Position numbers and translations under genes: made by a program. This document shows, one piece after another, positions 258 to 33,699 of a stretch of 64,000 nt of DNA; the first letter of the stretch is position 1, and every line of letters begins with the position of its first letter. Under the pieces are notes generated by a model, which saw only the letters and a list, made by a program, of their open reading frames with translations, made no database searches and was not told where the DNA came from. This DNA comes from Lineolata rhizophorae. Taxonomy: Eukaryota > Ascomycota > Dothideomycetes > Lineolatales > Lineolataceae. The DNA is taken from NCBI GenBank assembly GCA_010093515.1, contig MU001671.1:1324535-1388534 (forward strand). The letters run 5' to 3'.

Positions 258-2666
258 TTTGGCAGTGTGGGTGGTGAGAAAACACGTGTTTTGTTGAGGG
301 TGTTGAGTTCTGGGCAGTGAGTTGGAACCCCGGGTGACTCGGAACCCGGTCAGCTAGCTTACTGCCCACAATCGAATTGTTAGTCAAGCAGAAGTTGTCA
401 AACAGCCGTGACAGTGAAATCAAAATGTCCAAAACTTTGATAAAATATGAGGTTCGGTCTGATGACTGCATACTAAAGCTGACTTTTGGGATGAAAGTAA
501 TGACACAGACTCGGAATACCTAGTGTACAACTTGCCTAACTTCGTATACGCTAGATCGTATTGGTATATTATTTCACCTGCTAATTGGGTCATTCTGAGT
601 ATTTTATGTATCTGTCAGCAGTTTACCTTCAAGTTTAGTGCTTATGACGTACAAACGACTGCCGTTATCGATAAAGCTTAGCGTACTGCAAACTTCACTC
701 CTAGTGGACGACACTTCCTTCACGATGCATGGACATTGAATTATTCATGAATAATGACACTGACTTTTCGTACATTAATTTGTGGTATGATCCGCATGGA
801 GCTCTAGAGTCCATAGGAAGTCGGCGACTGTGGGCTGGTACTCTAGTTTTCTATTAACTCCTTGCCCCGCAAATACGAACGTACACCATTTTTACAATCA
901 AGTATGACCTTTTTCTATAGCAACAACCGCCTTGCAATGCTCTAGTACACTCCTTATATACATTTCAAAGGACTTTAACCTATATCTTCGTCCGTTCCCC
1001 TTTGACGAATGTACGTTTCTCTTATAATAGTAGGTCGATTATATTCGACAATATTGCAAAGGGTTAGAATTTCAATTCTCCTTTTTTCTAAAAGGCGCTA
1101 TGATAACAACAAAAAAGGACTCGTATAAAAGCTACAACCTTATAATCTTTCTGTTCTGATTAGAAGAGAGAAAGAATTAAAGGAAAAACTGGCCCCCTCG
1201 CTCACAGATCGATAGCGGCGATGAAAAGGGCATTGTCAGCCCGCATTTGCCACCTCTTGTGTGCAAATATTGCCGTCCCCAGCCAAAGGTCATGTGGATA
1301 GGGCCATATTTAGCTGATCGTAAGCAGGCGCTGCGTTCTGTGCTTTGATCATGTCTTACTTTTTTTTGGCGTACCAACTAGGAATGGACCAGGCTCCCCT
1401 TGAAGGCTGCACCTTACGCGTATTGACCCCCTTCAAGCGACGTTTACCCACTATGCAAAGAACCCCTTGGCAGCGGGGTAGCAAGTCAATGTGCACACAT
1501 CCCGAACACCGTATCCGAGGAAGCGGTCTTTGGATGTACAATTTCCTCCCTATCCCCGCGTGCCCTCCCCGTATCGTATATACGAGGGAGGGCCGAAGGC
1601 CCGACCTCGTCGTATATATTGCTTACTTTCCTTACATAGTATTGTGTGCCCTTTCCTAAGCTACAATACTGCGCGCTGTGTGCTCTTCCCTCAGGTGCGT
1701 AGTGTACCTACTTGTTTGTTATGCACTAAGCTTCCCTGAGGCGGGCTAAGCCGCAAATGGCAAACGAACCAGCGAGCCCCGAGTGAGCGAACGGAGCCAG
1801 AGCAGCCAGTATGGGTCTAGCCAGACTACGGAATGCACAGTATGGGCAGACCGAGTTAAGCAGTAGCCTCGAATTCGAGGACTTTCTGTTCTTTTCGAGT
1901 GCAAGATGCCCAGGCCAAGAACCAGGTTTGGTGCATTCTTTCATGGGCTACGAATTGGGACATTCAACTATTGGTTATTTCTCTTACAGGTGCCGCAGTG
2001 GTGGCAGACAGTTCCGTAGTCGTTTCGTGGAGTCAAAATGTGAAATTGGCACAAACAACACAAGAATTCTCTCATGATGTGAAACTAGGGGCCCCTTCTT
2101 AGTACTTGGCGAGTTCTGGCTTACAAAATTTCTCTGAGAGTTACAATTCTGTCATCTAACTGCTACTGTCGGAGCATTGCGTCACTCTGTTGCCATTCTC
2201 CGAGCTATTCCGCGAGTGCTTCCCCGAGTAGCACATGCGTTGCGTGAGAAACACGGCCATCCACGGGCCGAGCTGGACGGCGATGGCCTTGTTTGGGCCA
2301 ATGGTGGCCCGCATTCTCCGCGTGGGAAGGGACCTGGCACATGCTCACCGTGTCTAGATGCTCTCAAAACCATAGAACCGTGCCTCATCATCTTACACGG
2401 TAGTCGCGGGTTGGCCATAGATCCAGAAGCTTGGATGGACACCGAACCAGAGTTACGACGCAAAGTATGCCATCCCGTAGAGATAAAAGGGCTCCCGCCG
2501 CCCGCCGCCCTCCCTTCTTCCTTTTTGTTCTATCCCTCACACCGGAGCTCAGCAGTCTGAGGATTCAAGACGAGGCAGTTCGAGCCATCAGACGATATTG
2601 ATATCGCCATCATTCACTCTTATCGCGAATCAATATCGTCTCCATCACAAAAACCAGCACTCCAAC
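258..2666. other. Intergenic, AT-leaning, no gene recognised
   Basis: About 2.4 kb without a convincing reading frame. The part from 480 to 1170 is AT-rich and stop-dense. A nested hairpin lies at about 1573-1622. Around 1740-1800 there is a GC-rich stretch with alternating GCGAGC and GAGCGAACGGAGC words that could be old repeat DNA, but I could not assign it to a family. A perfect 12-bp inverted repeat at 2591-2640 belongs to the leader of the next gene. Confidence 0.5.
2591..2640. promoter_or_regulatory. Perfect 12-bp inverted repeat before the gene at 2667
   Basis: GACGATATTGAT at 2591-2602 is repeated in exact inverse complement as ATCAATATCGTC at 2629-2640, with a 26-nt loop. It ends 26 nt before the chosen ATG, so it would lie in the promoter or the 5' leader. 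It could be a dimer binding site or an RNA hairpin. The role is inference; the symmetry is visible directly. Confidence 0.45.
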
Positions 2667-30100: not shown

Positions 30101-31097
30101 GAGCGTTGAAGCGCCTTGCACCCTCCCCCCTGCCCTGCCGACCGGCCCGCCCAATCACCGCCCGCCCCGAGCCCTGCGCCTGCCCTCGCTGCCAGCTTGC
30201 CGCGGAAGACAAAAAGAACAGCCGCCCGCTGTCCGACCACCCTTCCCGCCCAGCTCTGCCCGCTTCGCCGCCAGCGCAGCTATATTTCCCTTCCCCTTCG
30301 GATCGTCGCCGGCCCACGACAATTGCTGCCGCCGCTGCTGCCGCCGCACGCTGCTACGCCGGCCTCGCCCGCCTGCTCGTCGCCCGCCCGCCGTTCATTT
30401 TCTGCGCCCGTCGCCCGACCCGAGTACCGCTCCCGCTTTCTTTTTCCGCCGCCGCTCGCCTCGCCGCCGCCGGGTTGGCCCTCCCCCGTCCGTCGCGGCT
30501 ACCACCCGCCCTCGCCTCGCTAGCCGAGCCACCCGCGACGGCCTCGCCCACCACCTTCGGCCGGCGCGCCCCAGTCAACCACGCCTTCCCGCTGCCTCAA
30601 ACTTTGGGAAAGAGCTCTCCGCCGCGCCCCGATCCAAGCGCCGTGGTTTTCCTCCGGCTCCGACCACATCGTCGCGGACTCGCCTAGCGCTAACGACTGC
30701 CGCGGCTACGCGCCTGCTCGCCCTCCCTTGGTGTCGCAAGCAAAGCAACTTGTGGAACTGCTGCTACGCCCGCCTTCCCGAGTGCAATCCGCAACGACGC
30801 GGCGATCTGACCTCGGTCGGCCCTGACGAGTCACCGGCATTATTACTGCGGATTGGAGACCTGCCCTATTCCACTCCTCCTATCCCAGAGGCCCGCCCAC
30901 CCCCTGGGCTGCAAAAGTGAGCCTCAACTAGCTCTCGTTGTTCCAGTCGCTATCAGCATAAGCCGCGAATCGCTGGCGCGGTTTTCCGCCTCCCGTCTTT
31001 CCTCCAGTCCCTTTTCACTTTCTTTTGGGCCGCCCGCCCGCCCGCCGCCTCTTTTGTCTGTCTTTCCTGACTCGGCCGGCAAAGCCACCCAGACACC
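24150..31097. other. Seven-kilobase gene-poor region
   Basis: No convincing gene was found on either strand. 24530-25020 is AT-rich with few open frames. From 25020 on, the DNA is GC-rich with many overlapping open frames of Arg/Pro/Gly/Ser-rich content, none showing known motifs. 27855-27880 holds a GGA microsatellite, and 29347-29378 has C-runs. The last kilobase (about 30100-31097) is a strong pyrimidine-rich CCG/CTT stretch that reads as the long promoter and 5' leader of the gene at 31098. Long upstream regions of this kind are common before fungal transcription-factor genes. Confidence 0.5.
27855..27880. repeat. GGA microsatellite
   Basis: About eight tandem GGA units in an otherwise purine-rich intergenic stretch. 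No open frame of interest uses it. Confidence 0.8.
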
Positions 31098-33699
31098 ATG
31101 ACCACCGTCGTGGAGGGCGTACAGAACGGAGCTGATCATTCCCGAAAGGACCGCCCCGCCGAGCCTCCCGCCTCTGGATTCACCGCGGTCAATGGTCGGC
31201 CCTCCCCTCCGCAGCCTCCGAGGACGAATGGAATGACCGTGGGTGAACACCGCACCTCCCCAACGTCGACGGCCACCATAGCGACGGAGAATACGTCGCT
31301 CTCTCCCCAGTCAGCGCATCATTCGCACAGCCTGGCAAACGGCTATCGTCACGCCAGTCCCGGCAAGCGCAAGCGGTCCGGTTCCGAAGTCAACGGGAGC
31401 AATTTGTCCCAGAGCGGTGGGCCCGCGCTTGAGACATCGAAGCGGAAACTAGAATCGTACGAATCAGACGCCTTGAGGGAGCGGAGCGCTCCCTCAAGCG
31501 TTGCCGCCCGCCACCCGAACTTCGTAGATCCGGCCATCGGCCGACCGCCGAACCTGCGTCTTTCGCACGGCGTTTCTCCCGACAGCGTCAATCCAAGTCC
31601 TTGGTCTGCCACCAGCCACGAAGAAAACGACGATTCCGAGAGCGAGCTCGCCGAGGCGCTTCAGCGCGAATCGAGGAATATGGACGAGCAGCAGAGAGCT
31701 GGCAACGGGGAGTCGCGAGGCATTTCTCTCGGTCATTCTCAGGCCCAGTCGAGCGATTTTAGCACGCCCATCACTACGGCGCGAACCGCGGCCGGTGTGC
31801 AGGTAGACACCAAGAGACGGAAGAGGGTACGGGATCTGCTTTGCGCCGTGTTTCTGGTAGCTGAAACCGACTAACATCAACTTTGCGCAGGTGTTTAGCA
31901 ACCGGACAAAGACAGGCTGCCAGACCTGCAGAAAGCGAAAGAAAAAATGCGATGAGGCCAAGCCAGAATGTTGGTTTCCCGTCCCCCTCGAAAATTATTT
32001 ATTGGCCCTGGAATTTCGTCATACATGCTTTTCAAATTCTGACACGTTTTGTGCGCAGGCAACAATTGCATCCGCGGCGGATTCGTGTGCGAGGGCTACG
32101 TCAGCAAGGCGACGTGGTCATCGAAGCCACCGATGAACAAAATTCCAGTTGCCCTCCAATCCAAGGAGCGCGGCGGCTACAATCCCGTACCAATATGGCC
32201 TAGGTAAGGACTCATTGAATTTGTCGCGCGAATTTTGGCTTGTTGCTTCCTTTTTTATCGCTTTGCTCTTTCCCCTCGCCAAATTAATTGAGGCGAAGCA
32301 CCGCCTCGCGAAACGTCGGCTCGCGATTCCCAAGTTGCGGTTGAAACAAACAACAACAACTTGAGATCCGAGGCACGCTTAAAATAGACATTTCATGTTG
32401 CGTTTCAATTCGAACCGCCGCGGCAACGCATTACTGATCAAGTACAGTCGCGACCCATACTCGGCGGACCTGAGCGCGCCTCAGGCGCCAGACAACGGGC
32501 GCGCGCGGGCGAGGCCAGCACCCGCCGAAGGGAGTTCGTCCCACGACCCGCCGAGGAGGTCGTGGTCGTCGGTGACTTGGCAGGATCAGAACCAGTCTCC
32601 GTATGCCCAAAGCCAACCACCGGCCAACGAAATTCGACAGCCTCCTAGTGCGACGAGCACCCAACCGCCGCAACTTCCCCCGCAACCGCAGCAAGCCCAA
32701 AGCCAGCCCAAAGAGACCATATCTGCCGAACGGCCGGGCTCAGCATCTGCGTCACGAGTGGAGGCACCTCACGTCCAATCAAGTCAAAAGTAAGTCTTGC
32801 CGACTTTGCGATCATGTGACTGGAGTGGTCGCGTTTGTTGTCAAAACAACGAACAAGCACCCCCTCTGTTCACTCCACGAGCCCCTGGAAATTGTCTCAC
32901 CCTTCCTTTTCTCAGCAACATGGCTGACCCTCGGTGTTCCGTCAGCATGATGACCTCGCAATCCGCCCTCATGGCGCAGCACACGGCGCACCAGGCTCTG
33001 CAGCGCGCTGCAAAGACGGAGAAGGAGAAGATGCGCGATGGCGAGTACTTCCACATGTACGACGACCAGCTCATCGACGAGCGCGAGCAGTGCAAGGCGG
33101 CGTTGTATCGCTACAACAGCAATGCGCTGAACCCTGCCAATGGGGTCAGCCGCGAGGAACGGGCGCGCATGTTCCGACAGATTCTACAACCGGGCAGCAC
33201 CGCCGCCGCCGCCACTCCAGCCGCCAACGATGCCGGCGTGCTGGGCAAGGGCGTCTTCGTAGAGGCGGCCTTCACGTGCGAGTACGGGTACAACATCAAC
33301 ATCGGCGACGACGTGGTGATCGGGCACAACTGCACGATCCTCGACTCGGCCCGGGTATCGATTGGGTCGCGCTCCATCATCGGGCCCAACGTCACCATCG
33401 TGTGCACCAACGCGCACACGGACCCAAACTACCGCGCAGGCAGCCAGGGCTGTTTCTACGCCAAGCAGGTCCTGATCGAGGAGGACACGTTTATCGGGGC
33501 GAACGTGACGATCCTGCCGGGCGTCAAGATCGCGAAGGGCTCGACCGTCGGCGCGGGCACGGTCGTAAATAAGGTATGTGTACCGCGGCGTCTTGAGCTG
33601 CTATGTGCTGACGTAGTGCTGCAGAGCGTCCCTCCTGGCGTCGTCGTGTCTGGCAATCCGATGCAGGTCAAGCATGGCGTTCCCCCGCGGAATGCGTAG
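31098..33699 (+). CDS. Zn2Cys6 cluster fused to NodL/maltose-type O-acetyltransferase
   Basis: Six exons (31098-31826, 31891-31969, 32059-32203, 32448-32789, 32916-33573, 33625-33699) give 675 residues. Residues 1-243 are Ser/Pro-rich and disordered with basic patches (KRKRSG, TKRRKR). A fungal binuclear zinc cluster follows with all six cysteines at 253, 256, 263, 270, 273 and 280 (CX2CX6CX6CX2CX6C). The fourth Cys codon is split by an intron with a GTTGGT donor. After a Pro/Gln-rich linker, a maltose-acetyltransferase (Mac) segment starts at about 467 (KEKMRDGEYFHMYDDQLIDE). A left-handed hexapeptide beta-helix follows to the end (NINIGDDVVIGHNCTILD, IGANVTILPGVKI). CTNAHTDPNYR carries the expected catalytic His. 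Acetyl-CoA would be the donor; acceptor sugar or other substrate is unknown. Intron phases agree at every junction, so fusion by mis-joined genes is unlikely. Confidence 0.9.

Follow-up and report, generated by a model that had tools for sequence, protein, structure and literature searches.

A gene on the plus strand of the 64,000-nucleotide stretch of the Lineolata rhizophorae genome analysed here (the window) appears to join a fungal DNA-binding zinc cluster to a domain of the maltose and galactoside acetyltransferase type. This combination raises two questions, namely whether the two halves belong to one polypeptide, and whether the second half could act as an enzyme at DNA.

The spliced gene model of the window (31098-33699, plus strand) has six exons and encodes 675 residues. 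Exon 1 (31098..31826) carries the start codon and a low-complexity N-terminal region (residues 1-243) with a basic KRRKR at its end. The opening portion of the Zn2Cys6 cluster (Cys 253, 256 and 263) lies in exon 2 (31891..31969), whose last nucleotide opens the Cys270 codon; intron 2 (31970..32058, phase 1) interrupts this codon of the fourth cluster cysteine, as happens likewise in Bcin04g03490 of Botrytis cinerea, and the remaining cluster cysteines (270, 273 and 280) and the region after them are found in exon 3 (32059..32203). Exon 4 (32448..32789) encodes a Pro/Gln/Ser-rich linker, the positional counterpart of the Botrytis 'Mac-assoc' region, and is separated from the acetyltransferase-like half by intron 4 (32790..32915; 126 nt, phase 2). 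Exon 5 (32916..33573) contributes an N-terminal helix, the Mac cap (470-523) and the bulk of a left-handed beta-helix, including three altered positions discussed below (G568, A598 and F624), and exon 6 (33625..33699) the C-terminal end of this domain and the stop codon. All five introns are bounded by GT...AG, and each has a branch-like CTNAY site lying 9-15 nt upstream of its 3' end; intron 2 has an atypical donor (GTTGGT), and its position is nevertheless common to Botrytis. Intron 5 (33574..33624), whose 51 nt are a multiple of three and hold no in-frame stop, would add 17 residues if retained; the VVxK-xxPP join conserved among relatives speaks for its removal by splicing. Retention of intron 4 would bring an immediate TAA at the junction codon and leave a protein of about 432 residues that has the cluster and lacks the beta-helix, possibly as a regulated isoform. 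The coordinates, the length of 675 residues, the cluster at 253-280 and the phase-keeping junction 32789/32916 given in the sequence-only reading are all borne out by the gene model and the cysteine positions. Of eight neighbouring open frames searched against Pfam, two had no match and six matched Med5, an acyltransferase domain, a WW domain, ankyrin repeats with a GDE1-like C2 domain, a DMAP1-like SANT domain and an SMC hinge, which we read as an ordinary chromosomal setting.

Three Pfam domains score above their cut-offs along the predicted chain: Zn_clus (251-289, E = 1.4e-9), Mac (470-523, E = 1.7e-10) and Hexapep (E = 8.2e-15), so that the order is a Zn2Cys6 cluster, an unstructured linker and a C-terminal Mac plus hexapeptide (LbH_MAT_GAT) domain. 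The cluster cysteines, at 253, 256, 263, 270, 273 and 280 of 675, have the spacing CX2CX6CX6CX2CX6C and a central placement in the chain. Residues 293-465 are 45% Pro/Gln/Ser/Gly and 15% large hydrophobic, a composition that fits a disordered linker. The Fungal_trans middle homology region was absent from Pfam matches at E values up to 1, a search in which the HMMER filters drop most weak matches. Elsewhere in the genome, the best match to the cluster region lies on contig 35 (L014:2906-3550, minus strand; 35% identity over 199-401) and belongs to a different Zn2Cys6 gene, in which the cluster motif is uninterrupted.

A genome search found one fusion of a cluster with a Mac domain in the species' own genome. 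Domain architecture and intron position suggest, as the best explanation, that the window gene is an orthologue of FF-7 (female fertility 7), made as one polypeptide and of an already known kind. The sequence-only reading had held that such architectures lacked a functional description; this was wrong, as knockouts, missense alleles, ChIP-seq data and a protein partner have been published for FF-7 and Bcin04g03490. In Neurospora crassa, FF-7 is described as a Gal4-type cluster with a putative acetyltransferase domain resembling maltose acetyltransferase; it co-immunoprecipitates at low efficiency with the GATA factor SUB1, and ChIP-seq gave 2756 putative sites and 2315 linked genes with a motif printed as AACCGC in the Results and as AAGCGC in the Discussion (PMC4378982). 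The ff-7 transcript is reported to cycle with a period of about 7 h and FF-7 to target its own gene (PMC6260400), while the knockout lengthens the clock period (+0.87 h) and the gene is linked to ADV-1 and to the starch regulator COL-26 (PMC8495738). On the conidia of the N. crassa mutant the papers disagree, describing them as reduced (PMC4378982) or not altered (PMC8079791). The Botrytis gene was found mutated in seven non-pathogenic field isolates carrying six distinct alleles, its deletion abolishes sporulation, sclerotia and bean leaf infection, and its orthologues are apparently restricted to Pezizomycotina (PMC8079791). From this range the source fungus of the window would likewise belong to the Pezizomycotina. 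The same source names FGSG_10069 of Fusarium graminearum as an orthologue with an important part in growth, sexual development and virulence (PMC8079791); the row for this gene (GzZC087) in a published table reads None, Reduced, Reduced, Normal, under column headings not shown in the excerpt (PMC3197617). POX09752 of Penicillium oxalicum, with identical InterPro domains, is required for full output of raw-starch-digesting enzymes, and its counterpart PDE_06843 is named as an FF-7 orthologue (PMC6318894, PMC7652724). A C6 zinc protein of Tolypocladium guangdongense annotated as maltose O-acetyltransferase (CCG_00181) appears among light-responsive genes, in both the up- and the down-regulated lists (PMC6471507), and is probably a further member of the family. 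The main text of PMC5592922 (Carrillo 2017) is without ff-7 or NCU04001, ff-7 was not found in PMC4204872, and a search of the rice blast paper PMC4192604 for acetyltransferase terms found none.

Counts of the reported motif across the window were also obtained. AACCGC occurs at 30 sites against 49 expected by shuffling, and AAGCGC at chance (69 against 71 expected). Six of the 30 AACCGC sites fall within 1.7 kb over the gene (30978-32689), with a post hoc scan-statistic p of 0.028; we give this clustering no weight because the test was chosen after the positions had been seen and five of the six sites lie inside the gene.

The exon structure of the Botrytis gene allows a closer comparison. 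The reference splice form of Bcin04g03490 has one 5' UTR intron and one coding intron of 50 nt and encodes 754 amino acids; by its published coordinates, 1030 nt precede the coding intron, which thus follows the first base of codon 344, and since C330 is the second of the six cysteines, the CX2CX6CX6CX2CX6C spacing puts the fourth at 344 (PMC8079791). In the window gene, 808 nt precede intron 2, which interrupts codon 270, that of the fourth cluster cysteine, behind its first base; codon and phase are thus identical in the two genes. With its intron at this codon, the Botrytis gene therefore holds the remaining cluster, the linker and the helix in one exon, and the fused chain there is no annotation error.

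The fold of the acetyltransferase-like half was predicted from exon 5. Single-sequence structure prediction was poor (pLDDT 49.7), and an AlphaFold model computed from exon 5 aligned with 50 of 80 fetched bacterial relatives (pLDDT 89.1) was used in its place, an input that biases the model toward the fold of the bacterial enzymes. It contains the Mac helices, the beta-helix and an additional N-terminal helix (exon residues 5-31). Forty chains passed an E value of 0.001 in Foldseek; the first 26 rows were all of the maltose/galactoside acetyltransferase type, 15 of them at an rmsd of 1.5-2.1 Å and 11 at 3.2-6.0 Å, and the nearest solved folds include the CoA or acetyl-CoA complexes 4isx, 5u2k and 1kqa. 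Known enzymes with this type of fold are trimeric.

Conservation was assessed against the 80 best of 408 confirmed bacterial relatives, with the longest open part of each locus aligned; one of them, an acetyltransferase relative in Duncaniella muris (L053:601-1089), has one in-frame stop near its start and is open over the rest. The search patterns used to find the relatives cover window residues 550-559 and 642-651, and the three active-site columns lie outside both. All 80 of the best 80 of 408 relatives, as well as the apparently free-standing paralogue described below, have Asn, His and Trp at these positions, where the window protein has Gly568, Ala598 and Phe624. We take the three columns to be LacA Asn85, His115 (the general base) and Trp139, the Asn column presumably being the catalytic partner and the Trp column the acceptor site. 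The sequence-only reading had credited the domain with a catalytic-type His. This claim fails: with a profile built from bacteria alone, Ala598 occupies the His column with high posterior, and the nearby His599 adjoins this column one residue on. A shifted loop could in principle bring H599 into place, and Phe for Trp at 624 is a mild substitution.

The loss can be placed against the conservation of the whole domain. The best 80 of 408 relatives show no variation at ten columns of the window protein, four of these ten columns inside the search patterns, and the window protein keeps seven of the ten: G556, D575, P589, R605, G646, V649 and K651, the last of which we take to be a CoA-side residue. 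Outside the patterns there are six invariant columns, and the window protein keeps three (D575, P589 and R605) and loses exactly the Asn, His and Trp, as against six of six kept by the paralogue. At the level of at least 90% conservation among the same best 80 of 408, the window protein keeps 29 of 38 columns, 13 of the 38 lying inside the patterns; of the 25 that are pattern-free it keeps 18 and loses seven, the paralogue keeps 20 and loses five, and single bacteria lose 0 to 6 (median 1). Because the window protein loses seven of these 25 strongly conserved columns, the Asn/His/Trp changes belong to a wider drift of the domain. The chance that all three would fall among seven losses of 25 is 0.015, for columns picked after being seen. 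The NCBIfam maltose O-acetyltransferase model agrees more loosely with this divergence, giving 72.5 bits to the window exon (a query without the last exon) and 157.4 to the paralogue, both below the cut-off of 314. The changed Asn, His and Trp columns appear to be a new point for a protein of the FF-7 type: a search of titles and abstract starts in the non-subscription literature found no paper examining the catalytic residues of FF-7 proteins.

Two places in the genome carry a Mac domain, the window gene and a maltose-acetyltransferase-like paralogue on contig 14 (L013:3247-4100), which has the Asn, His and Trp columns intact and a long low-complexity C-terminal tail. The paralogue looks free-standing, because no uninterrupted zinc-cluster motif was found around it in six frames over 6.5 kb, a search that an intron-split cluster would escape. 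The window protein and the paralogue have in common an insertion separating the cap from the helix (window 526-541), which is absent in all 80 of the best 80 of 408 bacterial relatives, and they also share a short insertion directly after R605. Because both insertions are shared, the fused beta-helix domain looks, by sequence, like an offshoot of a fungal enzyme. A scan of viral contigs with exon 5 gave seven pattern matches, with no relative among them.

The alleles reported in Botrytis bear on the same domain. Loss-of-function alleles include C330Y (a217) in the cluster and G722R (a371) and Y633D in the helix, and neither a217 nor the truncated a459 and a471 rescue a371 (PMC8079791). The distance between Y633 and G722 is 89 residues, and two window pairs match it, Y555/G644 and Y557/G646; barring a gap, either pair could be the counterpart, and the spacing cannot choose between them. 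The columns of Y555, G644 and G646 are conserved in 77, 73 and 80 of the best 80 of 408 bacterial relatives, figures that are inflated because these columns fall within the search patterns. The helix alleles are what one would expect if the fold is required and are by themselves no proof of catalysis.

From these data we regard it as probable that the window gene encodes a regulator of development, light responses and carbon use orthologous to FF-7, whose C-terminal fold, without the three active-site residues, serves as a scaffold or CoA-binding module and is no tethered acetylase. The fold is kept and the three active-site residues are lost; therefore, the domain is most likely a scaffold with a binding surface or pocket, not a working sugar O-acetyltransferase. 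Gene structure, domains, predicted fold, shared intron and the Asn/His/Trp change were computed from the window and its relatives; DNA binding, the SUB-1 partner and the need for both domains come from the papers on orthologues. By analogy with these, the zinc cluster would position the protein at AACCGC-like sites. The beta-helix may then form a trimer, bringing several clusters to DNA and raising the strength of binding, and its pocket or surface would bind a partner or CoA/acetyl-CoA without acetyl transfer. We infer the trimer, the ligand, the scaffold or sensor role and the lack of catalysis from this combination.

As a special case of this explanation, the domain may be a sensor of acetyl-CoA or another metabolite that binds CoA esters without catalysis and signals to the DNA-binding half, a reading that we hold tentatively and at a low probability. 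It is compatible with the regulator sensing acetyl-CoA or a sugar that the sequence-only reading had also put forward. Lys651, presumably on the CoA side, is kept, and CoA and acetyl-CoA complexes (4isx, 5u2k and 1kqa) stand among the nearest folds. Expression of N. crassa ff-7 on amylose is lower without COL-26 (PMC8495738), and P. oxalicum has a lower output of raw-starch enzymes when its orthologue is deleted (PMC6318894, PMC7652724); however, carbon-related gene expression is no proof of ligand binding, and CoA binding is putative here.

We consider it unlikely that the domain is instead catalytically active and that the cluster tethers this acetyltransferase to promoters, where it would acetylate a chromatin protein or a small molecule. 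The Botrytis authors speculated along these lines, and their loss-of-function missense alleles fall in the domain (PMC8079791), whose predicted fold is retained together with Lys651 and other invariant columns. Such alleles establish a requirement for the domain but not catalysis by it, and the His, Asn and Trp columns, retained by all 80 of the best 80 of 408 bacteria and by the paralogue, are altered in the window protein, which weakens the DNA-tethered enzyme of the sequence-only reading. Moreover, ff-7 is reported as dispensable for light-dependent nucleosome eviction in N. crassa, unlike sub-1 and wc-2 (PMC6293562), and a term search for 'catalytic' in the text of PMC4378982 gave 0 occurrences.

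A decay of the enzyme half in the window species only, with orthologues elsewhere remaining active enzymes, seems to us improbable. The window protein was the one fungal orthologue sequence compared, so the Asn/His/Trp loss could be peculiar to the lineage; the active-site columns and, in all, seven of 25 strongly conserved pattern-free columns have changed. Against decay, the reading frame is open, 18 of those 25 positions are retained and the model of the fold reaches a pLDDT of 89.1. Finally, we reject as very unlikely the reading of two adjacent genes taken for one, the first encoding a short zinc-cluster protein and the second a free acetyltransferase, a reading for which an ATG at 32920 in the beta-helix frame and the TAA straight after 32789 upon retention of intron 4 could be invoked, because the gap is merely 126 nt and forms a GT...AG intron with a branch-like site, linker and helix share one exon in the Botrytis reference splice form, proteins alike over both domains are reported across representatives of the Pezizomycotina classes, and the cluster allele a217 and the truncated a459 and a471 do not complement the helix allele a371 (PMC8079791). 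The single fused chain of the sequence-only reading is thus supported by the gene model, the reported orthologues and the Botrytis genetics.

An extension of the preferred explanation, a scaffold or CoA-binding module without catalysis, to the whole FF-7 family is speculative and in our view rather doubtful: a sugar acetyltransferase would have been recruited, stripped of catalysis and turned into a module that forms trimers, senses CoA and couples development and light responses to the supply of acetyl-CoA. If this held family-wide, the published 'putative O-acetyltransferase' would be a pseudoenzyme. Reported functions of FF-7 orthologues include the control of fruiting, sporulation and light responses and, in plant pathogens, of infection; if their acetyltransferase-like half is a pseudoenzyme, attention should shift to oligomer formation and metabolite binding.

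Among known systems, the same architecture, a Zn2Cys6 cluster with a C-terminal maltose/galactoside-acetyltransferase domain, is found in Neurospora crassa FF-7 (NCU04001), Botrytis cinerea Bcin04g03490 and Penicillium oxalicum POX09752. Bcin04g03490 also shares with the window protein the central cluster, its CX2CX6CX6CX2CX6C spacing, the unstructured linker and the codon and phase of a coding intron; the two differ in length (675 residues in the window, 754 in Botrytis) and in coding introns (five, as against one in the Botrytis reference form). With ordinary Zn2Cys6 transcription factors of the Gal4 type the window protein has the Zn_clus domain in common; in contrast to them, its cluster is central, Fungal_trans was not found by Pfam, and a beta-helix is present at the C-terminus. 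With maltose and galactoside O-acetyltransferases of the MAT/LacA type it shares, in the predicted fold, the Mac cap and the left-handed beta-helix, whereas its active-site Asn, His and Trp have become Gly, Ala and Phe and the whole domain is fused to one that binds DNA.
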